DNA from: Ignavibacteriales bacterium
GTDB lineage: Bacteria > Bacteroidota > Ignavibacteria > Ignavibacteriales > Melioribacteraceae
Direction of reading: 5' to 3'
Assembly: GCA_016177735.1 (NCBI GenBank)
Contig: JACOUS010000039.1
Location: 1-64,000, forward strand
DNA: 64,000 nucleotides
Position 1 is the stretch's first letter. Each line of letters opens with the position of its first letter. Of the stretch, positions 35,983 through 50,239 are shown one piece after another. The notes beneath the pieces were generated by a model that saw only the letters and a program-made list of their open reading frames with translations, was not told the DNA's origin and did not search any database. The translations under genes and the position numbers were made by a program.

Positions 35983-36468
35983 ATGCATAGTCACATTTTT
36001 CAAAAGTATCCCCAGTATGATAGAAGCAGTTTAATTGCGCTTCTTCAGGATGTTCAAGATATCTACGGCTATCTGCCGGAAAAAGCTTTAAGAGATATTT
36101 CAAACCACATAAATATTCCTTTGAGCGGTGTTTACGGTGTAGCCACGTTTTACAATCAATTCAGATTAACTCCGTTAGGAAAAAATGTTATCCGCGTTTG
36201 CAGAGGAACTGCATGCCATGTTAAAAATTCTGCCAACATTCTTGTTGCGCTCGAATCAGAACTCGGAATTAAAGCCGGACAGACAACGCGCGATAAAGTT
36301 TTTACACTTGAAACAGTTGCATGTATTGGTGCTTGCAGTATCGCGCCGGTAATTAATATCAATAAAGATTATTACGGAAGAGTTGTAATAAAAGAAATTC
36401 CCAAAATCTTGAACAAATACAGAAAAGAAGAAAGAGCTAATATTGAACAAAAAGTGAGTGCGGAATGA
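35983..36468 (+). CDS. hydC: NuoE-like [2Fe-2S] subunit of hydrogenase 1 (HydC type)
   Basis: The protein has 161 residues. A helical N-terminus is followed by a thioredoxin-like [2Fe-2S] domain with ligands C73, C78 (VCRGTAC), C114 and C118 (CIGAC), as in NuoE/HydC. In trimeric bifurcating [FeFe]-hydrogenases this subunit relays electrons beside the flavin subunit. Its stop overlaps the hydB1 start by 4 nt, so it leads a hydC-hydB-hydA operon. Confidence 0.9.
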   Translation: MHSHIFQKYPQYDRSSLIALLQDVQDIYGYLPEKALRDISNHINIPLSGVYGVATFYNQFRLTPLGKNVIRVCRGTACHVKNSANILVALESELGIKAGQTTRDKVFTLETVACIGACSIAPVININKDYYGRVVIKEIPKILNKYRKEERANIEQKVSAE

Positions 36469-38450
36469 ATAACTATTTAGAAAAATGCTGTGACCAATGC
36501 TGGCACTCAAAAGAAACGCCTTGCGAACAATTTGTTGCTTGTTGTATTGAAGGTCCGTTGTGCCATAAAGATGAAAATTGCAAAACCAAATTCAAAGAAT
36601 TATATGATACACTAACTTATGCCGATCATAATTTACCTTTGATATTTATCGGAATGGGAACGTGCGGATTAGCATCCGGTGCGGACAAAGTAAAAAAATC
36701 AATTGAAGAAGAACTTGAAAAACTCGGCAAGAAAGCACAAATAGTTTCAACCGGATGTATCGGCTATTGCGCGAAGGAACCGATTGTTGATATTAAACTT
36801 CCGGGCAAAGACAGGATATCTTACTGCGAAGTTTTGCCGAAGGATGTTTCCGAATTTATTAAAACAACAATTGTAGAAGGCGGCGTCTACAAAAAGAAAT
36901 TGCTCGGTACTTTTGGAAAGGGAACTGAAACTGTTCCAAACATAAATGAAACTCCTTTCTTCAAACGCCAGCAAAAAGTTGTTCTTGCAAACTGCGGTGT
37001 TATTAATCCGAATTCAATCGATGAATATATAGCATCGGGCGGATTCAAAGCGCTTGATAAAGCGCTTAGAATTATGACTCCCGAAAAAGTTGTTCTCGAA
37101 GTCAAAGAAGGCGGTTTGCGCGGAAGGGGCGGCGGAGGTTTTCCGACCGGAATGAAATGGGAATTGGCACATAAAAAAGAATCGTCTGAAAAATATATTA
37201 TCTGCAATGCAGATGAAGGCGACCCGGGCGCATTTATGGACCGTTCTGTTTTGGAAAGCGATCCATACAGAGTTGTTGAAGGAATGATTATCGGCGCGTA
37301 CGCGATAGGAGCCTCATTCGGTTACATTTACTGCCGTGCTGAATATCCTCTTGCAATAGAGCGCTTACAAAACACAATCGAAAAATGCCGCGAGTATGGT
37401 TTACTCGGCAAAAATATTTTGGACAGCGATTTTGATTTTGATCTCAAAATTAAAAAAGGTGCCGGCGCATTTGTTTGCGGCGAGGAGACAGCATTAATTG
37501 CATCAATCGAAGGCAAACGAGGTATGCCGCGTCCGCGTCCTCCATATCCATCCGATGCCGGTTTGTGGGGCAAACCAACTGTAATTAATAACGTAGAAAC
37601 ATTTGCTAACATTAGTCCGATAATTAACAGAGGTTCGGGATGGTTCTCATCAATTGGTACAGCATCAAGTAAAGGAACAAAAGTATTCGCATTGAGCGGC
37701 AAAGTTGCAAACAGCGGCTTGGTTGAAATACCAATGGGTGTTGCACTCCGCGAAATAGTTTTTGATATCGGCGGCGGTATTCCGAACGGAAAGAAATTTA
37801 AAGCCGTTCAAATCGGCGGTCCTTCCGGCGGATGTTTGCCCGATTCTGTGATGGACACACCGGTTGATTACGAATCGTTGAAGACTGTCGGTGCGATGAT
37901 GGGTTCCGGCGGATTCGTTGTTATGGATGAAGATACTTGTATGGTTGATATTGCAAGATATTTTTTGACGTTCATTAAAAATGAATCGTGTGGAAAGTGT
38001 GTGCCGTGCCGCGAAGGTACAAAACGAATGCTCGAAATTATTGAACGGATTCCGGTTCGTTACGGAACAAACGGAGATAAGTTAGCTCAGCTTCAAAGAT
38101 TCAAAGGAATAATTCATTTGCAGAGACTCGCTAATGTAATTAGAGATACATCGTTGTGCGGTTTGGGTCAGAGCGCATCGAACCCGATTGTTTCCGGCTT
38201 GAGATATTTTAAGGAAGAGTACGAAGAGCATTTATTCGAACGCAAGTGTGATGCAAAAGTGTGCAAAGAACTTTTAACGTATGAAATCGATCCTGAAGCT
38301 TGCAACGGCTGCGGTGTATGTTTAAGAAAATGCCCGGTTGAAGCGATAGTCGGCGAAAAGAAACAAGCTCACCACATTATTCAACTCAAATGTTCAAAAT
38401 GCGGAATGTGTTTCGAATCGTGCCGCTTTGAAGCAATTAATGTTAATTAA
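36465..38450 (+). CDS. hydB: NuoF-like NAD/FMN subunit of hydrogenase 1 (HydB type) with extra N-terminal Cys-rich module
   Basis: The protein has 661 residues. Residues 1-39 hold eight cysteines (CCDQC...CCIEGPLC...C), then a thioredoxin-like [2Fe-2S] domain (MGTCGLAS...STGCIGYC). The NuoF core follows with RGRGGGGFPTGMKWE, NADEGDPGAF, CGEETALIASIEG (FMN/NADH sites) and ESCGKCVPCREG (N3-type cluster). Two C-terminal [4Fe-4S] motifs (CNGCGVCLRKCP, CSKCGMCFESC) end the protein. This is the bifurcating-type HydB layout. The extra cysteine block at the very start is unusual. GTP-like fusion is absent. Confidence 0.9.
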   Translation: MNNYLEKCCDQCWHSKETPCEQFVACCIEGPLCHKDENCKTKFKELYDTLTYADHNLPLIFIGMGTCGLASGADKVKKSIEEELEKLGKKAQIVSTGCIGYCAKEPIVDIKLPGKDRISYCEVLPKDVSEFIKTTIVEGGVYKKKLLGTFGKGTETVPNINETPFFKRQQKVVLANCGVINPNSIDEYIASGGFKALDKALRIMTPEKVVLEVKEGGLRGRGGGGFPTGMKWELAHKKESSEKYIICNADEGDPGAFMDRSVLESDPYRVVEGMIIGAYAIGASFGYIYCRAEYPLAIERLQNTIEKCREYGLLGKNILDSDFDFDLKIKKGAGAFVCGEETALIASIEGKRGMPRPRPPYPSDAGLWGKPTVINNVETFANISPIINRGSGWFSSIGTASSKGTKVFALSGKVANSGLVEIPMGVALREIVFDIGGGIPNGKKFKAVQIGGPSGGCLPDSVMDTPVDYESLKTVGAMMGSGGFVVMDEDTCMVDIARYFLTFIKNESCGKCVPCREGTKRMLEIIERIPVRYGTNGDKLAQLQRFKGIIHLQRLANVIRDTSLCGLGQSASNPIVSGLRYFKEEYEEHLFERKCDAKVCKELLTYEIDPEACNGCGVCLRKCPVEAIVGEKKQAHHIIQLKCSKCGMCFESCRFEAINVN

Positions 38451-38469
38451 TATTGATACGGAGAAGACA

Positions 38470-40209
38470 ATGATTGAACTGACAATAAACGATATAAAAG
38501 TAAAAGCTGAAGAAGGAATGACAATTCTCGATGCAGCAAAATCTGTGGGAATACATATTCCTACTTTGTGCCACATGAAAGATTTATTTCCTACCGGTGC
38601 TTGCAGAATATGCGTTGTTGAAGTTGACGGAATGAGAGGATTAACACCGAGCTGTGCTTACCCGGTTATGCAAGGAATGAAAGTGCAGACTAATTCATCG
38701 AGAGTTAGAATTGCACGCAAAACAATTATTGAGTTGTTGATTGAAAATCATCCGCAAGATTGTTTGATCTGTGTAAGAAATAAAAACTGCGAGCTGCAAA
38801 ACCTTTCCGAAATGTACAGCATACGCGAACACAGATATGTTGGCGAAAAGAAAGACCATGCAATCGATATTTCGAGTGCATCGATGGAACGCGACCCGGC
38901 TAAATGTATTTTGTGCGGAAGATGTGTTCGAACTTGCGGCGAGATTCAAAAAATCGGCGCGATTGATTTTACAAACCGTGGATTCGTAAGCAACGTAACA
39001 ACTCCTTTCAACAAAGGATTGAATGTTAGCGACTGTATTCTTTGCGGGCAGTGTATTTTAGTTTGTCCAACAGCAGCGCTGCGAGAGAAGAGTCACTCAA
39101 AAGAAGTGATGAATGCAATTAACGATAAAACAAAATTTGTCATTGCACAGATTGCACCGGCAGTGCGCGCGTCGCTCGGTGAAGAATATAATCTGCCCCC
39201 CGGTTCAAATGTAACCGGACAAATAATCACCGGATTAAAACGACTCGGATTCAAAAAAGTGTTTGATACAAACTTTGCGGCAGACCTTACAATTATTGAA
39301 GAAGCAACCGAATTGATTTCACGCGTTGAAGGCGGAAAAACTTTGCCGATGTTCACAAGCTGCTGCCCGGGCTGGGTAAAATACATCGAACAAAACAGAC
39401 CGCAATTGTTGGAACATGTTTCTTCATGCAAGTCTCCGCACGAAATGGAAGGAGCTGTTCTCAAAACTTATTATGCAAAGAAGATGGGAATCGATCCGAA
39501 AAATATTTTTGTTGTTTCGATAATGCCGTGCACTGTTAAAAAATTTGAATCGGGCAGACCGGAATTAACCGAAGACCACATGGCAGATGTTGACGCTGTT
39601 TTAACAACAAGAGAATTGGTTCGTCTCTTCAAAGTTGCCGGAATTGATTTTAACGATTTACCGGAAGATGAATTTGATAATCCGCTCGGTGAATCGACCG
39701 GTGCGGCGGCAATTTTCGGAACAAGCGGCGGCGTGATGGAAGCTGCTTTGCGTACAGCATACTACAAACTTTCCGGTGCTGAATTGGAAGATTTGGATAT
39801 GAAAGATGTCCGCGGAAATTCAGGAATAAAAGAGAGCAGTGTTACGATCAACGGTTTGCAAGTGAATGTTGCAGTTGTTAACGGAATCGGTAATGTTGGA
39901 AAAGTTTTGGATGAAATTGAAAACGGCGAATCGAAATATCATTTCATAGAAGTGATGGCTTGCCCCGGCGGATGTATCAACGGCGGTGGTCAGCCGATTC
40001 ATCAAAAACCTGAAAAATTGAAAAAGCGTGTTCAAGCTTTGTACGATATCGACTCGAAAATGAAAAACAGAAGATCGCATGAAAACGAATCGCTGCAAAA
40101 ACTTTACAAAGAATTTCTCGGCGAGCCGAATGGTCATCTTGCTCATGAAATTTTACACACAAGTTACGTTGATAGAAAAAAGATACTTGAAGAATCGCAA
40201 TTAGAATAG
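38470..40209 (+). CDS. hydA: [FeFe]-hydrogenase catalytic subunit 1 (HydA)
   Basis: The protein has 579 residues from ATG 38470 (GGAGAAGACA just upstream; the frame opens earlier at 38428 inside hydB1). Order: plant-type [2Fe-2S] (C34, C45, C48, C62), His-ligated [4Fe-4S] (H94, C98, C101, C107), two [4Fe-4S] (C146-C156, C189-C199), and the H-cluster domain with L1 TSCCPGW (C298, C299), L2 MPCTVKKFE (C354), L3 MACPGGCINGGGQP (C498, C502). A small-subunit tail follows (RRSHEN...AHEILH). It produces or oxidises H2 with ferredoxin and NAD(H) via HydBC. All catalytic residues are present. Confidence 0.95.
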   Translation: MIELTINDIKVKAEEGMTILDAAKSVGIHIPTLCHMKDLFPTGACRICVVEVDGMRGLTPSCAYPVMQGMKVQTNSSRVRIARKTIIELLIENHPQDCLICVRNKNCELQNLSEMYSIREHRYVGEKKDHAIDISSASMERDPAKCILCGRCVRTCGEIQKIGAIDFTNRGFVSNVTTPFNKGLNVSDCILCGQCILVCPTAALREKSHSKEVMNAINDKTKFVIAQIAPAVRASLGEEYNLPPGSNVTGQIITGLKRLGFKKVFDTNFAADLTIIEEATELISRVEGGKTLPMFTSCCPGWVKYIEQNRPQLLEHVSSCKSPHEMEGAVLKTYYAKKMGIDPKNIFVVSIMPCTVKKFESGRPELTEDHMADVDAVLTTRELVRLFKVAGIDFNDLPEDEFDNPLGESTGAAAIFGTSGGVMEAALRTAYYKLSGAELEDLDMKDVRGNSGIKESSVTINGLQVNVAVVNGIGNVGKVLDEIENGESKYHFIEVMACPGGCINGGGQPIHQKPEKLKKRVQALYDIDSKMKNRRSHENESLQKLYKEFLGEPNGHLAHEILHTSYVDRKKILEESQLE

Positions 40210-40603
40210 TAAGTATAAATGAAGTTCTTTGTTTTTGATAATGCATACTCGTGTCCGCTAACAAACGGCGGGTAAACTCTTGTTCTTAATCGTGTCTTCT
40301 GAATTCCTGTTCATGAGCAAGAATTAATAACTGAAGTTATGCAAAATTGTTCACTGATATTTTTGATTGCCCGACCTTCAGGTCGTGGTTGAAAATTCCT
40401 CTTCTGCAGCTGGCTTTAGCCGCAATCTAATACAATTTGGGCTGAAGCCCGGTGTAGTGGGAAGTACGCTTTTACCTTCGACATATCACCGCGAAGCGGG
40501 ATTCCGTTTACACTGAAAATGTCGGGGCAATTTTAATACAAAGCATGCTCTAATTTAGTTAATTGTTTAGTCATCGAAAGTTTCGAAAAAATAATAAACA
40601 AAA
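40210..40603. repeat. Intergenic repeat cluster between hydA1 and the sensor kinase
   Basis: No gene is seen in 394 bp. Repeats: 40256-40280 matches 1139-1163 at 23 of 25 positions; CCCGACCTTCAGGTCGTGG (40370-40388) belongs to the dispersed hairpin family; GGCTTTAGCC and GGGCTGAAGCCC follow; and 40479-40530 matches 59926-59977 at 47 of 52 positions. The order of these modules parallels the 59.8-60.0 kb gap. The promoter of the sensor gene should lie in the last ~70 bp. Confidence 0.65.
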
Positions 40604-42598
40604 ATGTTTGAAGGAATAGTTACAACAATCGGGCAGAAATGCAAACGCTGTTACTCTTGTATTAGAGAGTGCCCGGCGCGTGCAATAAAAGTAATCAACG
40701 GTCAGGCTGTTGTAATTAAAGAAAGATGTATTAGCTGCGGCTACTGTACAAAAGTTTGTTCGCAGAATGCAAAAAGAATAAAGAGCGATGTAGAAATAGT
40801 TCTGCACGATTTTATTCCTTCAGACAATGCAGTTGCAATGCTTGCGCCGTCGTTCCCGGCATCGTTTCCGAAACTCTATTCAAAAATTCCAACGGCGCTC
40901 AGATTGATCGGCTTCAAGCAAGTTACGGAAGCGGCGTTTGGCGCTGATTTGATAAGCAAACATTACAGCGAGTACATCGAAAATAAAAATGACGAAACGA
41001 TAATCAGCAGTGCGTGTCCGGCAATTTATAATTGGATCGAAAAATATTACACGGATTTGATTCCGAATGTTGCAAAAATTGTTTCGCCGATGATTGCGAT
41101 GGGAAGATATCTCAAAAAAAATTTGGGAGACGAAACCAAAGTTGTATTTATCGGTCCGTGCATCGCAAAGAAAAGCGAATACATCGATGAAGAAGTTGAA
41201 GGCGCAGTTGATGCCGTTCTCACATTCGTTGAGTTGAAAAATGTTTTCGAAGATTTGAACATCAACTTGAACGCGTTGAACGAAAGCGATTTTGATCCGC
41301 CGCATTCGTACACCGGCAAAGCTTATCCGCTGACCGGAGGCTTGCTGAAAACTTCGAATATCTCGGGCGACATCCTGGAAAAAGAAATAATAGTTGTGGA
41401 AGGGAAAAGCCGTGCCGAAGAAGTAATCGAAGAAATTGCGCAGAAGAAAATCAAATCAAAATTTATTGATATTCTTTTCTGCGAAGGATGCATCAACGGT
41501 CCGGCAATCGATTCCGGATTAAGTTTTTATTCACGACGAGAAAAAGTTATCAATTACATTAACGAAAATATCAACACATTTGATAAACGCGTTTGGCAAA
41601 GTACAATCTTCAACAACCGCGATATAAATCTTGACAGAGGTTTTGTAAATAAGAATCAACTGCGTGAAATGCCATCGGAAGAAGAGATACGGGAAATTTT
41701 ATCGCGCACAAGCAAGTATGTAAAATCCGATGAATTGAACTGCGGCTCGTGCGGTTATCCTACTTGCAGAGAATATGCCGTTGCGATTGCAAAAAATTTG
41801 GCGGAAGATGATATGTGTCTTCCGTTTTTAATCGACAAACTTGAAATGGCAAACAAAGAATTGCAAGAGACACAAGAGCAATTGCACAGTGCGGAAAAAC
41901 TTGCATCGATTGGACAACTTGCGGCTGGCATTGCCCACGAAATCAATAATCCGCTCGGCTCAATCATGTTGTATGCTTCGATGCTGAAAAGAAAAATTGA
42001 GAACAGTACTCAATGCGAACAAAATTCCGAAGATCTAAAATTGATTATCGAAGAAGCGAATAGATGCAAAAACATCGTATCGAATCTTTTGAATTTTGCA
42101 AGGCAAGGAAAACTTAAAATCAGCGAAGTGAGCGTCGGCGAAATTATTATGAATGTTCTGCTCATTCTAAAAGTAAAACCCGAGTTATCAAATATTTCCT
42201 ACAATGTGAATAACGAAACAAGCGAACTGGTGATTGAAGCAGACGCAGATCAGCTCAAACAAATTTTTATGAATCTGATTTCGAATGCGTGCGAATCGCT
42301 CGAGAACAGTGAAATCAAAGTTGTGAACATCAATCTCAAAAGGAATGATGAAAATATAATTATAGAAGTAACAGATACCGGCTGCGGCATCCCACAAGAA
42401 AATTTGAACAAAATTTTTACTCCTTTCTTCACAACAAAAAAGATTGGAAAGGGAACGGGCTTGGGGCTGGCGATAACTTACGGCATTATCAAAATGCACA
42501 AAGGTGATATCAAAGTAAAAAGCGTTGTTGATAAAGGAACAAGTTTTACAATAACGCTTCCTATAAAACAAAATTTCATAAACACGATGTTGAATTAA
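40604..42598 (+). CDS. Hydrogenase-like iron-sulphur sensor histidine kinase
   Basis: The protein has 664 residues and no membrane segment. Two [4Fe-4S] motifs (C13-C23, C42-C52) lead into a HydA-like domain (~65-330) whose H-cluster motifs are altered: SACPAIYNW for L1, GPCIAKKSE for L2, FCEGCINGPA for L3. A further Fe-S motif follows near 370-400 (CGSCGYPTC...MC). A helical linker leads to the HisKA domain with the phospho-accepting histidine near 445 (AHEINNPLGS) and an HATPase (NACESL, GCGIPQENL, GTGLGLAI). It probably senses H2, redox state or oxygen and phosphorylates the receiver proteins encoded next to it. Sensing is inferred. Confidence 0.85.
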   Translation: MFEGIVTTIGQKCKRCYSCIRECPARAIKVINGQAVVIKERCISCGYCTKVCSQNAKRIKSDVEIVLHDFIPSDNAVAMLAPSFPASFPKLYSKIPTALRLIGFKQVTEAAFGADLISKHYSEYIENKNDETIISSACPAIYNWIEKYYTDLIPNVAKIVSPMIAMGRYLKKNLGDETKVVFIGPCIAKKSEYIDEEVEGAVDAVLTFVELKNVFEDLNINLNALNESDFDPPHSYTGKAYPLTGGLLKTSNISGDILEKEIIVVEGKSRAEEVIEEIAQKKIKSKFIDILFCEGCINGPAIDSGLSFYSRREKVINYINENINTFDKRVWQSTIFNNRDINLDRGFVNKNQLREMPSEEEIREILSRTSKYVKSDELNCGSCGYPTCREYAVAIAKNLAEDDMCLPFLIDKLEMANKELQETQEQLHSAEKLASIGQLAAGIAHEINNPLGSIMLYASMLKRKIENSTQCEQNSEDLKLIIEEANRCKNIVSNLLNFARQGKLKISEVSVGEIIMNVLLILKVKPELSNISYNVNNETSELVIEADADQLKQIFMNLISNACESLENSEIKVVNINLKRNDENIIIEVTDTGCGIPQENLNKIFTPFFTTKKIGKGTGLGLAITYGIIKMHKGDIKVKSVVDKGTSFTITLPIKQNFINTMLN

Positions 42599-42609
42599 TG
42601 AGGTTAAGT

Positions 42610-43008
42610 ATGTCAAGCAGAAAAATCAACAAGATATTATTGGTAGATGATGATATTGATCTACTCGAACAAACAAAACTTCTTCTTGAATCGAAAGGAT
42701 TCAAAGTAGTAACTGCGGAAGATTCCGAACAAGGTTTTAAAGCTTTTCAGCAAGAGAACCCGGACGCCGCAATAATAGATCTAATTATGGAGCAGATGGA
42801 TTCAGGATTTATTCTCTGCTATAAAATTAAGAAGACCGAACACGGCAAAAATATTCCGGTTTATCTTCTCACTTCTGCAACTTACGAAACCGGTTTTAAA
42901 TTCAGTGCATCCACTCAAGAAGAAAAAGAATGGATTAAGTGCGACGGCATTATTCACAAACCGGTTGTTGTTGAAGAATTAATTTCCAAACTGGAGAACT
43001 TTAGCTAA
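42610..43008 (+). CDS. Single-domain response regulator
   Basis: The protein has 132 residues from ATG 42610, preferred over 42598 because GAGG sits 6 nt upstream. A CheY-like receiver is complete: acidic pocket LLVDDDIDL, phospho-acceptor aspartate in AIIDLIMEQMD, conserved T/S in LLTSATY and lysine in HKPVVVEEL. There is no output domain, so it acts by protein contact or in a phosphorelay with the adjacent kinase. Confidence 0.9.
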   Translation: MSSRKINKILLVDDDIDLLEQTKLLLESKGFKVVTAEDSEQGFKAFQQENPDAAIIDLIMEQMDSGFILCYKIKKTEHGKNIPVYLLTSATYETGFKFSASTQEEKEWIKCDGIIHKPVVVEELISKLENFS

Positions 43009-43069: not shown

Positions 43070-44551
43070 GTGATTAACAATAAAGCAAATATTTTGATTG
43101 TTGATGATGAGAAAGGTCTGCGTCTCGGAACGAAGAGATTACTTGAAGAAGAAGGATACGATGTTGCAACGGCAGAAAACGGAGAAGAAGGGATAAAACT
43201 CGGAACATCGAAAGAGTTTGATGTTGCCGTGATTGATCTCAAGATGCCTGATATTGACGGGCTGGATGTTCTAAAAGAAATTAAGAATGTCCATCCCAAT
43301 ACGGTTTGCTTTATTGCAACAGCATACGCCAGTTACGATACTGCAATTCTTGCGACAAGAATCGGTGCGTACGGTTACATTCCTAAACCGTTCACGCCGG
43401 AGGAATTCTGTTATCAGATCGAGCAAGGAATTAAACAGAGAAAATTAATTCTCGATTCCGAGCGGCTGAAAAAAGAGCGCGAGGAAAATCTATTTGAACT
43501 CGCATCGGAAAAATCACGCCTCAACGCAATCATTAAATCGATTAATGAAGGTGTGCTTGTAATAAACAAAAACAACGAAGTGGTTTATTACAACTATTCT
43601 GCACTAAAATTTCTCAACTTGCCGGATTTGAAAATCGGCGAGAACATTACCGGCAAACTTCCCGATAAAATTTGCGCCATCATTCAAAAAATATTTTCGA
43701 AAGAAAAAATTTTATTGAAAAGTTACACAGTTCAAACGGAAGTAGGCGCGAACAATGAATTGATTGTCGAAGCCGCATGTACGCCGGTTCCGCAGCCGGA
43801 CGGAACACTTGCCGGTGTTGTAATTACACTCGGCAATATCACGGAATTCAAAAAGATCGAGATCATCAAATCTCAATTCGTTTCGATGGTAGCGCACGAA
43901 TTGAAAGCTCCGCTCGCGGCTATTCAAGGTTTCTTGAATATTATTCTCAATGTATCGTTGAATATCGACAAAGAAAAAGAGAAAGATTATTTGAAACGTT
44001 CCGTATCGAGATTAAAAAGTCTCACCGATTTGGTGAATGATCTTCTCGATATATCACGCATGGAAATTAAAACAAAGCAGAGAGAACTTGAAGACGTGAT
44101 GCTTGCTGATGTTGTTAACAGCACGCTTCAGTTTCTTGAACTTGAAGCCAAGAAGAAAAATCTAACAATTGAAAAACAGTTTGAAGGAAATATTCCTTCG
44201 ATAAAAGCAGACTTAAATGAAATTACGCGCATGGTAACAAATCTTTTGAGCAACGCATGCAAATACAATGTTGAAAACGGAAAGATCATTATTTCAATTT
44301 CCGTCTTGCAAAATTATTTACAGCTCGTTGTGAAAGATACCGGAGTTGGTTTGAAGGCTGAAGAAAAAACAAAATTGTTCAGCGAGTTTTACAGAGCAAA
44401 GAATGAAAGGACAAGAGGAATCAGCGGTACCGGACTTGGGTTGAGTATTGTAAAACGGATTGTCGATTCCTATCACGGTTCAATTAATGTTGAATCGGAA
44501 TACGGAGTGGGAACATCCTTTACAATTAAATTACCAATAAATCAAAACTAA
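43070..44551 (+). CDS. Receiver-PAS-histidine kinase hybrid
   Basis: The protein has 493 residues with a GTG start at 43070 (the overlapping ATG is followed at once by TGA). An N-terminal receiver domain has phospho-aspartate D56 in VIDLKMPDIDG and lysine in PKPFTPEEF. A coiled linker and a PAS domain follow (~155-260, SINEGVLVINKNNEVVYYN). HisKA has H near 275 (MVAHELKAPLAAI), and the HATPase has NLLSNACKYN, DTGVGL and GTGLGLSI. The receiver-first layout suggests it is controlled by another kinase, probably the hydrogenase-like sensor upstream, and passes phosphate on to the next receiver. Confidence 0.9.
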   Translation: MINNKANILIVDDEKGLRLGTKRLLEEEGYDVATAENGEEGIKLGTSKEFDVAVIDLKMPDIDGLDVLKEIKNVHPNTVCFIATAYASYDTAILATRIGAYGYIPKPFTPEEFCYQIEQGIKQRKLILDSERLKKEREENLFELASEKSRLNAIIKSINEGVLVINKNNEVVYYNYSALKFLNLPDLKIGENITGKLPDKICAIIQKIFSKEKILLKSYTVQTEVGANNELIVEAACTPVPQPDGTLAGVVITLGNITEFKKIEIIKSQFVSMVAHELKAPLAAIQGFLNIILNVSLNIDKEKEKDYLKRSVSRLKSLTDLVNDLLDISRMEIKTKQRELEDVMLADVVNSTLQFLELEAKKKNLTIEKQFEGNIPSIKADLNEITRMVTNLLSNACKYNVENGKIIISISVLQNYLQLVVKDTGVGLKAEEKTKLFSEFYRAKNERTRGISGTGLGLSIVKRIVDSYHGSINVESEYGVGTSFTIKLPINQN

Positions 44552-44566
44552 CAAATAGGAGAACAC

Positions 44567-44947
44567 ATGGCACTAATAGCAATCATCGATGATGATCTTG
44601 ATATTCTTGATGCCAGCGGTTTGGTCTTAAAATCAAAGGGACATGATGTAATCACCGCAACAAATCCAAACGATGGTTACAAGATTGTCGTTGAAAAAAA
44701 ACCGAACCTGATTATTCTTGATGTGATGATGGACGAACCTGACGACGGTTTCTATCTTGCTCAGAAATTCCGCAAGGAAGGAATCAAAATTCCAATTTTA
44801 ATGTACACTTCGGTATCAAAAGCAATCGGTTTGGATTTCGACAAAAGCGAAATGGTACCGGTTGACGACTTTGTTGAAAAACCGATTTCACCGGAAGAAC
44901 TTGTTGAAAAAGTTGACAATCTTCTGCATCAGAAGGAGGTTAAATAA
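44567..44947 (+). CDS. Single-domain response regulator
   Basis: The protein has 126 residues, a receiver only: IIDDDLDILD, phospho-aspartate D52 in IILDVMMDEPDDG, TSVSKA and EKPISPEEL. GGAGA precedes ATG 44567. It lies 15 nt after the hybrid kinase and 2 nt before hydC2, so it joins the signalling genes to the second hydrogenase set in one transcript. Confidence 0.9.
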   Translation: MALIAIIDDDLDILDASGLVLKSKGHDVITATNPNDGYKIVVEKKPNLIILDVMMDEPDDGFYLAQKFRKEGIKIPILMYTSVSKAIGLDFDKSEMVPVDDFVEKPISPEELVEKVDNLLHQKEVK

Positions 44948-44949
44948 CT

Positions 44950-45423
44950 ATGCTTGTAACTGAAAAAAATAATATGACCGAAGAGATCGAAGAACTTGTG
45001 CGGAGATACGGCAGAGAACGTTCTTCATTGCTTCCGATTCTTCAAAGCATTCAGAGAAAACATAAGCACATTCCCGATTTTGCACAGCAGGAAGTTGCTC
45101 GTCTGCTCGATATTCATCCGGTTGAAGTTTTCAGCGTGATCTCCTTTTATTCATTCCTGAACACAAAACCGAAAGGAAGATTTATCGTTCGTTTGTGCCA
45201 AACTATTTCGTGCGATCTGCAAGGCAAAGCCGCAGTTTCAAAAGCTATTGAGAGGGAGCTTGGGATTACTTTCGGTGAAACTACGAAAGACAATAAGTTT
45301 ACACTTGAATATGCAAACTGCGTCGGCATGTGCGATCAAGGTCCGGCTATGATAATTAACGAGAGAGTTTATTTCAAATTAACTCCCGAAAAAGCCGTAC
45401 AAATTTTGAACGAGTTGAAGTGA
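44950..45423 (+). CDS. hydC: NuoE-like [2Fe-2S] subunit of hydrogenase 2 (HydC type)
   Basis: The protein has 157 residues. The [2Fe-2S] ligands are C83, C88 (LCQTISC), C124 and C128 (CVGMC). A strong AAGGAGGT at 44933-44940 sits at the end of the preceding response-regulator gene, 9 nt before ATG 44950. The next gene's start follows its stop by 8 nt. It is a paralogue of the subunit at 35983, with clearly diverged sequence. Confidence 0.9.
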   Translation: MLVTEKNNMTEEIEELVRRYGRERSSLLPILQSIQRKHKHIPDFAQQEVARLLDIHPVEVFSVISFYSFLNTKPKGRFIVRLCQTISCDLQGKAAVSKAIERELGITFGETTKDNKFTLEYANCVGMCDQGPAMIINERVYFKLTPEKAVQILNELK

Positions 45424-45431
45424 GGGCGGAC

Positions 45432-46637
45432 ATGGAAAAAAATAATCGTAAAGGTACAGTACTGTTTTCAAAATACACTCGCGGAGAAGGAATTAAAAAA
45501 GTTCTTTCAATATCACGCGAAGATGTTCTTTTCGAATTACGCGAATCAAAATTAAAGGGAAGAGGCGGTGCCGGATTTCCGACTGCAACAAAATGGACAA
45601 TAGTTGCAGCTGCCAAGTCCGATCAGAAATATATTATCTGTAATGCAGATGAAGGCGAACCCGGAACCTTCAAAGACCGTGTTCTTCTTCTCGAATATCC
45701 CGAATTGGTTTTTGACGGAATGGTTATTGCCGGTTATACTATTGGTGCAACAAAAGGAATTGTTTATCTGCGCGGCGAATATGAATACATGTTGAAATCT
45801 TTGGAAGATTATCTCGAGCAAATGAGAAAAGATAATCTGCTCGGTAAAAATATTATCGGCAAAAAAGGATTTGAATTTGATATCGAAATTCGTCTCGGTT
45901 CAGGCGCTTATGTATGCGGCGAAGAAACTGCATTGATCGAATCACTCGAAGGAAACAGAGGCGAAGCGCGCAACCGTCCGCCGTATCCCGTTAATACCGG
46001 TTTTATGGGCAAGCCGACAGTTGTTAACAATGTCGAAACACTTGCATCGGTTCCGCACATAATTGCAAAAGGCGGTACGTGGTTTCAAAAACACGGCACC
46101 GATAAATCGACCGGCTCAAAATTATTTTCTGTTTCCGGCGATTGCGGCAAACCCGGTGTTTATGAATTACCGTGGGGAACAAAAATTTCCGAACTGTTGA
46201 AAATTGTTGGTGCTGAAAATACAAAAGCCGTCCAAGTTGGCGGAGCTTCGGGAACGTGTATTCCGAAATCACAATTCGAGAGAACACTTGCATACGAAGA
46301 TGCCGCAACCGGCGGTTCGATTATGATTTTCAACGAATCGAGAAATATGCTGCACATCCTGAAAAACTTTATGGAATTTTTCGTTGAGGAATCGTGCGGT
46401 CAATGCACACCGTGTAGAATCGGAAATACAAAACTGCTCGAAGGTGTTGAGATGATTGAAAGAGGCGAATTCACATTCAATTATGTTAACCAGTTAAAAG
46501 AACTCGGCAGAACGATGCAAGTTGCATCAAAGTGCGGATTGGGTCAGTCGAGTCCGAATTCGTTCATATCAATTTTAGAAAATTTCAAAGACGAAATATT
46601 TTTCCAAAACGGTAACGGAGGCACACATGGAAAGTAA
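45432..46637 (+). CDS. hydB: NuoF-like NAD/FMN subunit of hydrogenase 2, short form
   Basis: The protein has 401 residues from ATG 45432 (TGAGGGCGG upstream). The NuoF core is complete: RGGAGFPTATKWT, NADEGEPGTFKDR, CGEETALIESLEG, RNRPPYPV and the N3-type cluster ESCGQCTPC...CGLGQ. Unlike HydB1 it lacks the N-terminal thioredoxin-like [2Fe-2S] domain and the C-terminal pair of [4Fe-4S] motifs. It therefore has fewer electron exits and may couple differently to ferredoxin. It overlaps hydA2 by 11 nt. Confidence 0.9.
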   Translation: MEKNNRKGTVLFSKYTRGEGIKKVLSISREDVLFELRESKLKGRGGAGFPTATKWTIVAAAKSDQKYIICNADEGEPGTFKDRVLLLEYPELVFDGMVIAGYTIGATKGIVYLRGEYEYMLKSLEDYLEQMRKDNLLGKNIIGKKGFEFDIEIRLGSGAYVCGEETALIESLEGNRGEARNRPPYPVNTGFMGKPTVVNNVETLASVPHIIAKGGTWFQKHGTDKSTGSKLFSVSGDCGKPGVYELPWGTKISELLKIVGAENTKAVQVGGASGTCIPKSQFERTLAYEDAATGGSIMIFNESRNMLHILKNFMEFFVEESCGQCTPCRIGNTKLLEGVEMIERGEFTFNYVNQLKELGRTMQVASKCGLGQSSPNSFISILENFKDEIFFQNGNGGTHGK

Positions 46638-48543
46638 AGGTGATTTGAGAGCGCCGGTCAGCCAGACTCCGCTCGTTGTTGAGAAACCAAAAGATACTTC
46701 TGCAATCGGCGGAATGGTTTCGATCGAGATTAATGAAAAGAAAGTTTCCGTACCGTTGGGAACAACTATTCTTGAAGCATGCCGGCAGAATGGAATAACA
46801 ATTCCAACATTGTGTCATCACGATGATTTATGCGTTGCCGGTGTGTGCCGCGTTTGCGTTGTTGAAGTTGAAGGAATGAGAACATTGCAAGCATCGTGCG
46901 CATTCCCGATAACAAACCCGTTAAAAATAAAAACTTCATCGCCGATGGTTCGCAAAGCACGTAGAAATATTATTGATTTACTACTCAGCGAACATTACGG
47001 CGAATGTTATTCATGTTTCAGAAACGGCAAATGCGAATTGCAATCGCTCGCAAAAGAATACGGAGTTGATAATTACACATTCGGTCACGTAACTGAACCA
47101 AAGTATGATGTTGATAAATCTTCGTACTCGGTAGTTCGTGACATGAGCAAGTGCGTTCTCTGCAAACGATGTGTTAGAACTTGCATCGATCTTCAGGAAG
47201 TCGGTGTGCTTGAAGCAATTGATAGAGGCGATAAAACTCACATCGGAACATTTCTCGAAAAACCTCTTGCCGATGTTATTTGTATTAATTGCGGTCAGTG
47301 TATCAACAGATGCCCGACCGGTGCATTGCGTGCAAACGATCCTTCCGATGAAATATGGGCGGCAATTGACGATCCGACTAAACATGTTGTAATACAAACT
47401 GCACCTTCGCCGCGCGCCGCAATTGGCGAGGAATTTGGTCTCGGCGCCGGTCATTCGATGACACGCGAATTGAACACAGCGCTGAAGCGGATCGGTTTTG
47501 ATAAAGTGTTCGATACAAACTTCACTGCCGACTTAACAATTATTGAAGAAGGCACGGAATTAATTATCCGTCTTTACAAAGCACTTGTGCAAAAAGAAAA
47601 TGTTGCACTGCCTCAGTTTACTTCGTGCTCGCCGGGATGGGTAAAATTCATTGAGCATTACTATCCCGAATATTTGGATAACATGAGTTCGGCAAAATCT
47701 CCTCAGCAAATGTTCGGGGCTTTGATAAAAACTTTCTATGCACAGAAAGCCGGCGTTGAACCGAAAGATATTGTTTCGGTTGCGGTGATGCCGTGTTCTG
47801 CGAAGAAGTTTGAATGCAATAGACCTGAAATGTACGACAGCGGTTACAAAGATGTTGATTACGGTTTAACAACACGTGAACTTGCACGCATGATTAAAGA
47901 AGCCGGAATTAATCTGCCCGAGATGCCGAAGAGTGATTTTGATTCTCCGTTCGGCGAAGCTTCCGGCGCCGGATTAATTTTTGGTGCAACCGGCGGCGTA
48001 ATGGAAGCGGCTATCCGCTCGGTTGTTGAATTTGTTCTCGGCAAAAAAGTAGAAGACATTTTTGAAAAGGCAAACATAATTCCTCTTCGCGGTTTCGATG
48101 GAATTAAATACATGGAAATTCCGATCGGAGATAAAGTTGGTCCGGTTCCGGATTTGATCAAACATCTCGTTCCAAATTGGGACTGGCTGAAAGGTGCAGT
48201 GTTGAAAATTGCAGTTGCACACGGAACAGCCAACGCCAAAAAAATTATGGATGATATTAAAGCCGGCGGTAAATTCTCCGAATGTCATTTCATTGAATTC
48301 ATGGCATGCCCGGGCGGATGTTTGGGCGGCGGCGGTCAACCGATTCCGACTACTCCCGAAATCCGTAAGAAACGCGCCGAAGCAATTTATGCCGAAGATG
48401 AATCACTTGAATTGCGCAAATCGCACGACAACCCGAACGTTGTTAGAATCTATGAAGAATTTCTAACCGAAGGACCGTGCAGCCATCTATCGCATGAGTT
48501 ACTGCATACCCACTACACAAAACGCGGAAGATATATTGCGTAA
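46627..48543 (+). CDS. hydA: [FeFe]-hydrogenase catalytic subunit 2 (HydA), TSCSPGW variant
   Basis: The protein has 638 residues. A 30-residue proline-rich leader precedes [2Fe-2S] (C63, C74, C77, C91), the His-ligated cluster (H123, C127, C130, C136), two [4Fe-4S] (C176-C186, C219-C229) and the H domain: L1 FTSCSPGW (C334, S335), L2 MPCSAKKFE (C390), L3 MACPGGCLGGGGQP (C561, C565). HydA1 has CC where this has CS. The rest, including the small-subunit tail (SHELLHTHY), is intact. I recall TSCSPGW as also occurring in HndD-type enzymes, so loss of activity should not be assumed. GGAGG precedes ATG. Confidence 0.93.
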   Translation: MESKGDLRAPVSQTPLVVEKPKDTSAIGGMVSIEINEKKVSVPLGTTILEACRQNGITIPTLCHHDDLCVAGVCRVCVVEVEGMRTLQASCAFPITNPLKIKTSSPMVRKARRNIIDLLLSEHYGECYSCFRNGKCELQSLAKEYGVDNYTFGHVTEPKYDVDKSSYSVVRDMSKCVLCKRCVRTCIDLQEVGVLEAIDRGDKTHIGTFLEKPLADVICINCGQCINRCPTGALRANDPSDEIWAAIDDPTKHVVIQTAPSPRAAIGEEFGLGAGHSMTRELNTALKRIGFDKVFDTNFTADLTIIEEGTELIIRLYKALVQKENVALPQFTSCSPGWVKFIEHYYPEYLDNMSSAKSPQQMFGALIKTFYAQKAGVEPKDIVSVAVMPCSAKKFECNRPEMYDSGYKDVDYGLTTRELARMIKEAGINLPEMPKSDFDSPFGEASGAGLIFGATGGVMEAAIRSVVEFVLGKKVEDIFEKANIIPLRGFDGIKYMEIPIGDKVGPVPDLIKHLVPNWDWLKGAVLKIAVAHGTANAKKIMDDIKAGGKFSECHFIEFMACPGGCLGGGGQPIPTTPEIRKKRAEAIYAEDESLELRKSHDNPNVVRIYEEFLTEGPCSHLSHELLHTHYTKRGRYIA

Positions 48544-48793: not shown

Positions 48794-50239
48794 ATGCAAG
48801 CTTTAGTGCCCGATTGGGCGAGTCACTACGGCGAATTTTGGAGAGCTATCAGGGTACGCAATCTCTGGTTTATTCATCTGCGCTACTTTGCAGTTGCAAT
48901 GCTTGCCGGTTTTATACTCATCGGCGAAACACTTCTCGATTTTAGACTCACAAACGAACAACTGATTTCAATCTCTTTCATCCCTCTGATAATCCTTTCG
49001 TATAATATTATTCTACACAAAACCAGAAAGTATGTAGGATGCGAGCCCGGCAAATTAAACTGTCTGCATCTTTCGTTAATCCAAATGATTCTGGATTTGA
49101 TTGCACTGATGATGCTCGTTTATTTTACCGGTACAATCGAATCGCCGCTCTACATGTTTTTTAATTTTCACATGATAATCGGAAGTTTAATTCTGCCCGG
49201 TTACATTGTTTATTCCATCGCCGGCTTCGTAAGTTTATTTTTCAGTTCGCTTGTAATTTTTCAAAGGTTCGGTTTAATTGGAAGTTATATCATCAGCGGA
49301 TTGTACGGCAGTAACCGTCCGCACACATTAACGTACGATATTCTTTTCATAACGGTTTTCATGTTGATGCTTTTCATCAGTGTTTATCTCGGCAATAAAA
49401 TTTCGCGTCAACTTTATAAAAGGGAACAACAACTTAGAACGACACTTGAAAAACTCAACGAAGCCGAAAAGGCAAAACAAAAATATATTATCGGCGTTGT
49501 TCACGAAGTTAAAACGCCGCTTACTGCAATCCATTCAATTATTGATCTGATATTAAAAAAGTTTGTTGGACCGATAAGCGCGGATGTTGAATATAAACTT
49601 GAGCGAGCACTTTCGCGCACCGACGAGACTTTGCATCTTCTCAACAACATTCTCCGGCTTTCGAAGTTGAAACTGCTCGATATCAAAACTACTGAAGAAA
49701 TAGATATCAATAATTTCATCATCACACTTTTGGATAAACATCACGAATCCGTTAAAACAAAAAATATAAATTTGACTTACAAAGATTTGCGGGAAGAAAT
49801 AAAATCCGTCCGTTCGGATAAAATCTTGCTGGAGTTAGCCCTCTCTAATATTCTTGCCAACTCGATCAAATATGTGAACGAAAACGGTGAGATAGAAATA
49901 TTGCTAAGCAATGCAAACGAAGGCGTAACGATAGAACTGAGTGATAACGGCATCGGCATACCGAAAGAGGAACTTAAAAAAGTGTTCGATCAATTTTACC
50001 GCGCTTCGAATGTTGATAGAACACGTCACGAAGGAAGCGGAATGGGACTCGCGGTTGTAAAAGAAATAATTGAGATGCTCGAAGGCGAAATAAAAATTGA
50101 AAGTCCTTCACGGCTAGCCCTGGACGAACATGCCGGCACAACTTTTACAATAACTCTTCCGTATCGTTTTCAAACTACTTCGTATGATATTTTCGAAGTC
50201 AACGATCAGGATTACTTATCAAGCAAAAGTAATTTTTAG
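48794..50239 (+). CDS. Membrane sensor histidine kinase
   Basis: The protein has 481 residues. About six N-terminal membrane segments (~28-205) form an integral sensor without a periplasmic loop domain. A coiled linker leads to HisKA (VVHEVKTPLTAIHSI, phospho-histidine near 237) and HATPase (LANSIKYVNENG, DNGIGIPKEEL, GSGMGLAVVKEI). No response regulator follows, so it may phosphorylate one of the free receivers in the hydrogenase island just upstream. Its 3' end overlaps the convergent ispE by 41 nt. Confidence 0.9.
   Translation: MQALVPDWASHYGEFWRAIRVRNLWFIHLRYFAVAMLAGFILIGETLLDFRLTNEQLISISFIPLIILSYNIILHKTRKYVGCEPGKLNCLHLSLIQMILDLIALMMLVYFTGTIESPLYMFFNFHMIIGSLILPGYIVYSIAGFVSLFFSSLVIFQRFGLIGSYIISGLYGSNRPHTLTYDILFITVFMLMLFISVYLGNKISRQLYKREQQLRTTLEKLNEAEKAKQKYIIGVVHEVKTPLTAIHSIIDLILKKFVGPISADVEYKLERALSRTDETLHLLNNILRLSKLKLLDIKTTEEIDINNFIITLLDKHHESVKTKNINLTYKDLREEIKSVRSDKILLELALSNILANSIKYVNENGEIEILLSNANEGVTIELSDNGIGIPKEELKKVFDQFYRASNVDRTRHEGSGMGLAVVKEIIEMLEGEIKIESPSRLALDEHAGTTFTITLPYRFQTTSYDIFEVNDQDYLSSKSNF

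Follow-up and report, generated by a model that had tools for sequence, protein, structure and literature searches.

The 64,000-nucleotide stretch of Ignavibacteriales DNA analysed here, hereafter the window, encodes a protein, HydS-HK, in which two N-terminal [4Fe-4S] motifs, an [FeFe]-hydrogenase H-domain, a further FeS motif (Cx2Cx4Cx16C) and a histidine kinase succeed one another on a single polypeptide, and in which loop L3 of the H-domain carries C-x2-C in place of C-x3-C. This short spacing is a clade-wide feature and not a local oddity. On balance, though by no great measure, we favour the view that HydS-HK is a soluble H2 or redox sensor histidine kinase resembling group C HydS, which would hold an H-cluster by way of the shortened L3 and would act on receivers and on hydABC.

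Table 1. Features of the HydS-HK locus, with positions as in the window and residue numbers as in HydS-HK
Feature	Position	Strand	Basis
hydC1-hydB1-hydA1, upstream of HydS-HK	35983..40209	+	ORFs; HydA1 NCBIfam group A6
HydS-HK: Fer4x2 - H-domain - FeS - HisKA - HATPase, 664 aa	40604..42598	+	ORF, Pfam
Two N-terminal [4Fe-4S] motifs, C13-C52, residues 10-56	40631..40771	+	Pfam; 8 Cys invariant in 46 sequences
H-domain Fe_hyd_lg_C, residues 76-300	40829..41503	+	Pfam E 4.3e-56; model vs CpI 4xdc
L1 ISSACPAI; C138 = CpI C300; A137 at CpI C299 position	41003..41026	+	Sequence
L2 FIGPCIAKK; G184 at M353, C186 = C355, K189 = K358	41147..41173	+	Sequence
L3 DILFCEGCINGP: C293-x2-C296, one residue shorter than C-x3-C	41468..41503	+	Loop comparison
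C-terminal FeS motif Cx2Cx4Cx16C, C380-C405	41741..41818	+	PF04060
Predicted continuous helix 406-467, last FeS Cys to phosphoacceptor helix (H445)	41819..42004	+	AlphaFold, pLDDT per block 61-86
HisKA, H445 in HEINNP	41912..42106	+	Pfam, H box
HATPase_c	42242..42568	+	Pfam
RR1, stand-alone receiver domain, next gene	42598..43008	+	Pfam; synteny
Receiver-PAS-HisKA-HATPase hybrid kinase	43070..44551	+	Pfam; synteny
RR3, stand-alone receiver domain	44567..44947	+	Pfam; synteny
hydC2-hydB2-hydA2, downstream, same gene run	44950..48543	+	Gaps from RR3 onward -11 to +2 bp

The open reading frame starts with ATG and is a real gene. Besides the Fer4 and H-domain matches, Pfam placed PF04060 at residues 378-407, HisKA at 437-501 and HATPase_c at 547-655, and detected no PAS domain in the protein at E 0.001, HisKA coming after the FeS motif. 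The cysteines expected to carry the clusters stand in SSA-C138-P, GP-C186-IAKK, LF-C293-EG-C296-INGP and C380GSC383GYPTC388-x16-C405, and the kinase boxes H, G1, F and G2 are intact (HEINNP at 445, DTGCGI at 591, FTPFFTT at 605 and GTGLGL at 617). The motifs SACP, GPC, FCEGC and, between H-domain and kinase, CGSCGYPTC, which the first-pass annotation had picked out from the letters of the DNA, are all as it wrote them. Its description of the protein as cytosolic is likely to hold, the best 19-residue hydropathy being 1.67 as against 2.24 in the window kinase at 48794-50239, by which measure a membrane helix in HydS-HK is unlikely.

The C-x2-C spacing of L3, likewise recorded in that annotation, is confirmed, and both HydA proteins of the window differ from HydS-HK in having C-x3-C, followed by GGGQP. 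GGGQP is indeed missing from HydS-HK, as had also been claimed, but PAS-type and MCP-type HydS are without it too, so that the shortened spacing and not the missing GGGQP is the distinctive part. Among 395 genomes of the phylum, 36 gave a match at E 1e-20. An intact orthologue is present in the window's own genome and in 25 others, where identity over the sensor part is 55-76%, and L3 is C-x2-C in all 26; a 27th genome (G059), in which the gene is broken into two pieces, was excluded from this count. As the same loop recurs in 26 of 26 intact orthologues, each from a different genome, chance or assembly error was rejected as its source. The same search yielded 11 PAS-type paralogues (580-618 aa) and five MCP-type copies (755-930 aa), all with C-x3-C, the types being assigned by Pfam matches to PAS on two proteins (L028 and L031) and to MCP on one (L039). 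None of the 16 cluster cysteines varies, nor does H445, in an alignment of 46 sequences comprising the window protein and 45 relatives at 40-75% identity.

Pooling of loci from all searches gave 258 rows, or 218 after removal of near-duplicates by shared 25-mers, and kinase fusion was assigned from BLAST comparison with the two kinases of the window (E 1e-5), with Pfam applied to five proteins. The 103 non-redundant kinase-fused rows consist of 95 with C-x2-C, seven with CCxxC and one with C-x3-C (L030), which groups with the MCP type in the tree; the rows without a kinase comprise 96 with C-x3-C and 19 with C-x2-C, 18 of the latter being GGDEF-type and the remaining one (L062) ending at a contig end. 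When the loop is measured from the conserved upstream D/E, the C-x2-C and CCxxC kinds are both one residue shorter, the CCxxC kind having regained a cysteine at the C-x3-C distance. Each of the 16 cluster cysteines occurs in 101 or 102 of the 102 non-redundant short-loop kinase-fused rows, the gaps all stemming from L050, the downstream one of the two G059 pieces, which is counted with the window's own copy among the 95 C-x2-C rows; 101 of the 102 are whole over the sensor part. A scan of named contigs supplied 73 of these 102 rows, and its best 80 loci are all C-x2-C, one of its two patterns (LFCEGCI[NS]) selecting for that loop, and for this reason the claim of a short loop is not based on scan rows alone. 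The titles among these best 80 include Ignavibacteria, KSB1, Hakubella, Planctomycetota, Spirochaetaceae, Deltaproteobacteria and others, the closest named contig being from a MAG labelled Melioribacter (76%), with records of the window's own genome possibly omitted.

Two further searches made no use of the loop pattern and covered 198 genomes each, from the phyla of a Spirochaetaceae genome (G396) and a Hakubella genome (G395). Matches at 1e-35 were obtained in 52 and 21 genomes, respectively, and the best 30 of 81 and the best 20 of 22 matches were fetched, one of the 30, at 311 aa (L167), being dropped as too short. All 12 kinase-fused copies among those fetched have the short loop, five as C-x2-C, of which two belong to the centre genomes G396 and G395 themselves, and seven as CCxxC; it was from these searches that the CCxxC and GGDEF cases came. 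A second copy in genome G581 (L205) likewise has CCxxC and a kinase H box. The clade-wide deletion of one residue in L3 lends support to the reshaped pocket proposed by the first-pass annotation, and it also bears on a simpler explanation, namely that HydS-HK is a normal HydS sensor with a normal H-cluster whose cubane tolerates C-x2-C, the loop change being neutral. In keeping with such neutrality, all four ligand cysteines survive, as do most residues of the pocket, and CxxC pairs commonly bind cubanes; the spacing nevertheless looks fixed, being short in every intact orthologue and in all 12 kinase-fused copies from the two further searches, and C-x3-C is equally constant in the other branches, which leaves a neutral change improbable in our estimation.

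In a tree of 98 rows, 32 of them drawn from the 102 short-loop kinase rows, these 32 kinase-fused sequences form one clade (100/97), situated near the PAS-HydS branch, which includes the HydS of Ruminococcus albus, and near the GGDEF branch, with no support for any one branching order of the three. The same kinase clade was recovered in an earlier tree of 58 rows, and it remains when the L3 columns are removed (99/96), whereby the possibility that L3 drives the shape of the tree was rejected. The data neither establish nor reject the idea that the short loops of the kinase and GGDEF branches arose once (p-AU 0.486).

Whether the H-domain holds a [4Fe-4S] cluster only or a modified H-cluster was left as a choice by the first-pass annotation, and the pocket residues bear on it. 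CpI numbering was placed by motif, the relevant residues being C300, C355, K358, C499, C503, A230, P231, S323, P324, Q325 and P354 of CpI. The positions C299, M353, M497, F417 and S232 were taken from the accessible parts of published papers. Counterparts of the H-cluster ligands C300, C355, C499 and C503 are present in HydS-HK as C138, C186, C293 and C296, with the L3 spacing altered. Across the kinase branch the counterparts of A230-P231, S323-P324, P354, K358, C300 and C355 are retained in 101 of the 101 rows covering them, those of C499 and C503 in 102 of 102, and that of S232 in 96 of 101. K358 holds the distal CN ligand. The accessible text of PMC12138974 describes S232 of CpI as a hydrogen-bond partner of the proximal CN and gives A at this position in the active CpIII, so that a change from S to A is tolerated. 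Other positions depart from CpI: that of M353 is G in all 101 kinase-branch rows covering it, that of M497 is L in 100 of 102, including the window protein, and that of C299 is variable, the 32 kinase-fused tree rows having P, A, S, T or D there. In CpI itself the M497L substitution is reported, in the accessible part of the source, to cause loss of [2Fe]; PAS-HydS mostly have L here too (23 of 28). Position 289, equated by number only with E289 of TamHydS, which with E252 belongs to the proton path of group D HydS, is D in 94 and E in 8 of 102 rows.

The distribution of the maturases HydE, HydF and HydG was determined at thresholds of E 1e-40, 1e-60 and 1e-40, respectively. All three are present in the window's genome, and the 26 orthologue genomes divide into 15 with HydF and HydG, two with HydF alone and nine with neither. 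One of these nine is a single-contig assembly; the pocket residues of HydS in the nine display no consistent change, and the genomes still carry HydA, canonical where read. In 12 other kinase-fused genomes HydF was found in six and HydG in five. The Spirochaete-phylum genome G541 has as its sole PF02906 protein a kinase-fused CCxxC copy, whose gene has the same orientation as hydF, 39 bp away, and is convergent with hydG-hydE. Because it is CCxxC, this copy may still use a C-x3-C pair, which the window protein, having F292, cannot. G581 encodes two H-domain proteins, both with CCxxC and a kinase, and hydE and hydF share the contig of one of them, while HydG was not found in G581 at E 1e-40.

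The 18 genomes with a GGDEF fusion lack HydE, HydF and HydG altogether, and each encodes one H-domain protein at 1e-10, which is the GGDEF fusion itself. Within this branch the position of S232 is E in 18 of 18 proteins and K358 is lost in 17 (L200 keeps K); the GGDEF motif is intact in 15 of the 18, and Pfam identified GGDEF on L186. As all 18 genomes are without maturases, though their completeness is not told, a [2Fe] site in the GGDEF branch appears very unlikely. These findings, along with the nine orthologue genomes devoid of HydF and HydG, speak for an alternative in which the H-domain of HydS-HK binds a [4Fe-4S] cluster only, through C138, C186, C293 and C296, and senses redox state or ferredoxin and not H2, the short loop, which the GGDEF branch shares, marking the loss of [2Fe]. 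Set against this are the retention of the S232 and K358 counterparts in the kinase branch and the presence of hydE, hydF and hydG around the only H-domain gene of G541; we regard the alternative as unlikely for HydS-HK, if deserving of serious consideration. It is on account of those two retained counterparts and of the one relative with adjoining maturase genes that the evidence for the kinase branch leans to a (modified) H-cluster, with the nine genomes lacking HydF and HydG and the L at M497 counted against. Of the two options given by the first-pass annotation, the modified H-cluster would thus suit the kinase branch, while [4Fe-4S] alone fits the GGDEF-fused branch instead. A bolder and more tentative proposal, which we would put at somewhat below an even chance, is that sensors with the short L3 make up a class of their own, derived from hydrogenases and fused directly to outputs, in which the kinase branch would have an H-cluster of new geometry and the GGDEF branch would be a cubane-only c-di-GMP switch.

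The genes around HydS-HK point to hydrogenases as the object of its signalling. HydS-HK is separated from the upstream hydC1-hydB1-hydA1 by 394 bp, which contain one terminator-like site (40252-40274), and opens a compact run in which it is followed by RR1 (1-bp overlap), the hybrid kinase (after 61 bp), RR3 (15 bp), hydC2 (2 bp), hydB2 and hydA2; no gene for a DNA-binding output was found by Pfam in this module. Both HydA1 and HydA2 match the NCBIfam group A6 NADH-dependent [FeFe] hydrogenase above cut-off, and the window's genome has three H-domain proteins in total. This arrangement recurs among the best 80 scan loci: of the 67 that have at least 3 kb downstream of HydS, 62 possess the hybrid kinase and 57 both the receiver and the hybrid kinase within 3.5 kb, while 35 have hydC2/B2/A2-like genes within 6 kb, and a hydA-type gene lies within 1 kb in 50 of the 72 with at least 1.5 kb upstream. 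Five genomes of the same family without HydS-HK that were examined contain either one PF02906 gene of HydA2 size (four genomes) or none (one genome), from which it follows that HydS goes with the hydA1 set, and the target of the pathway is probably hydrogenase expression or activity. The conversion of a hydrogenase fold into a sensor, as envisaged by the first-pass annotation, finds good support in the fusion to a kinase, the conserved receiver and kinase neighbours and a tree position beside HydS sensors; no evidence favours the O2 sensing that it also named as an option. The linkage to hydABC genes and the co-occurrence with the hydA1 set could be expected if the H-domain were a docking or structural platform, sensing for instance the assembly of HydABC with no sensory chemistry at a cluster; as all 16 cluster cysteines are invariant and the pocket is conserved, we consider this very improbable.

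A structure of the whole protein predicted by AlphaFold from the 46-sequence alignment has a mean pLDDT of 85.5 and a pTM of 0.65, the H-domain being mostly above 90 but at 58 over residues 251-260 and at 86 over L3. The superposition on [FeFe] hydrogenase that had been suggested as a check was run, and residues 1-350 of the model match CbA5H (Z 37.7, 345 residues, 2.7 A) and CpI 4xdc (Z 34.6, 347 residues, 2.5 A), while the kinase part matches ZraS (E 2.1e-19). Directly after C405 the model runs into the long helix leading to the H445 helix, a region predicted with less certainty (pLDDT 61-86). Under the favoured reading of an H-cluster whose cubane is held through C293-x2-C296, H2, or a redox state set by ferredoxin via the two N-terminal clusters, would alter the state of the H-site, and this change would be passed to the C-terminal [4Fe-4S] domain, whose last ligand immediately precedes the long helix, and along that helix to the phosphoacceptor helix, altering autophosphorylation of H445. 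Phosphate might then reach the neighbouring receivers, namely RR1, the receiver-PAS-kinase and RR3, which would adjust the adjacent hydABC hydrogenases. The last cluster of TamHydS is not reduced by H2, yet its secondary structure changes, according to the accessible part of PMC13104023, so by analogy the signal may be conformational rather than an electron transfer to the last cluster.

A kinase-fused HydS beside hydABC is already described: sub-type V of BfuT, from Hydrogenedentota and Caldithrix, is a HydS of group C3 that bears a histidine kinase domain and whose gene adjoins bfuABC (hydABC) (PMC11406978, accessible text). HydS-HK resembles it in the kinase fusion and in the place beside hydABC, a comparison made by description, L3 spacing and a receiver module being absent from that accessible description. 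Relative to the literature searched, in its accessible portions and with subscription papers outside it, the clade-wide short L3 and the maturase-less GGDEF-fused branch are new, no mention of C-x2-C in L3 or of a GGDEF-fused [FeFe] H-domain having been found there. How sensory [FeFe] hydrogenases signal is still treated as unresolved in the sources as accessible, TmHydS and TamHydS having been studied without an attached kinase. With HydS-HK the H2-dependence of kinase activity can be assayed directly, as sensor and kinase form one soluble polypeptide with a predicted helix joining the last FeS ligand to the phosphoacceptor His. The short loop raises a testable question, that of which cluster is held and what is sensed; nature has supplied a test, in the L3 deletion, of the factors that determine the geometry and affinity of the H-cluster and, in the GGDEF branch, of a hydrogenase fold without maturases.

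The use of a hydrogenase as an H2 sensor driving a histidine kinase is familiar from the regulatory [NiFe] hydrogenase and its HoxJ kinase (group 2b), which differ from HydS-HK in having an unrelated metal centre and fold and in being separate subunits. HydDB proposes kinase-linked H2 sensing for the group C1 'histidine kinase-linked' enzymes (PMC5037454, accessible part). The idea of H2 sensing through a histidine kinase is thus shared, but HydS-HK has the P1-P3 motifs, unlike C1 of Hydrogenedentota, where they are hardly visible as far as the accessible source goes. With group C HydS (M2f) the window protein has in common the order Fer4x2 - H-domain - Cx2Cx4Cx16C and the G at M353, the FeS motif being known for HydS of groups C and D (PMC8163306, accessible part). 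Replacement of C299, M353 and M497 is known for HydS (accessible parts of PMC8163306 and PMC10055695), and in group C C299 and M353 are replaced, in the sources as accessible often by A and G, exactly the residues (A137 and G184) of HydS-HK. The PAS-bearing members TmHydS and RaHydS have PAS where the window protein has its kinase; RaHydS (RUMAL_RS17375) shares 36% identity with it and, like the 594-aa PAS type, has C-x3-C in L3 as opposed to C-x2-C. Cthe_0335 is listed as D M2e in the accessible part of PMC3561251, and this prompted consideration of a place in group D, which was rejected on G184, group D HydS having S or T at M353. Group D TamHydS (M2e) resembles HydS-HK in having no PAS and in sharing its FeS motif at a corresponding position (C379/C404 in print, C380/C405 in the window protein), but HydS of that group are described, in the accessible sources, without the fused kinase that HydS-HK carries.

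In the phylum to which Hakubella belongs, 18 genomes encode an H-domain fused to GGDEF (L186-L203), and L3, the cubane-ligand loop of this H-domain, reads C-x2-C. The fusion was assigned by Pfam on L186 and the GGDEF motif is intact in 15 of the 18 proteins; the position of S232 (CpI numbering) is occupied by E in every one and K358 has been lost in 17. Each genome encodes the fusion as its single H-domain protein, and the genome search recovered no HydE, HydF or HydG in any of the 18. The GGDEF-fused protein probably represents a hydrogenase fold that is no longer a hydrogenase.

At the cut-offs used (HydF, E 1e-60; HydG, 1e-40), neither maturase was found in G027, G120, G047, G263, G212, G259, G152, G369 and G180, nor in G396, G401 and G437, and HydE (1e-40) was missing too in some of these genomes. 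All twelve carry both HydA and HydS, the HydA motifs being canonical where read, and G120 is a single-contig assembly.

Among kinase-fused copies from the Spirochaete phylum, L3 of L156-L162 contains CCxxC, which offers both a C-x2-C and a C-x3-C pair; genome G541 harbours no PF02906 protein other than HydS-HK. In a further HydS type, comprising L039 (the only one of them examined by Pfam) and its kin L040-L042, L177 and L180-L183, the fusion partner is an MCP signalling domain. These proteins occur in the window's own phylum as well as among Spirochaete-phylum genomes; their L3 reads C-x3-C, and the M353 position is mostly S.

Features and their coordinates
Feature	Location	Detail
Gap 5′ of HydS-HK	window 40210-40603	394 bp
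Terminator-like site within this gap	window 40252-40274	
HydA2	window 46627-48543	motif TSCSPGW
hydG-hydE, facing both HydS-HK and hydF	L204:5395-11169	genome G541

HydA1 of the window reads TSCCPGW as compared to the HydA2 motif, whose serine occupies the place of the cubane ligand C300 of CpI. Several relatives (L140, L142, L144, L145 and L148) carry this serine in their HydA as well.

Apparent inverted repeats, judged by eye, were noted in the gap preceding HydS-HK (GGCTTTAGCC and GGGCTGAAGCCC). The HydS-HK orthologue at L050 (genome G059) is split into two reading-frame pieces.
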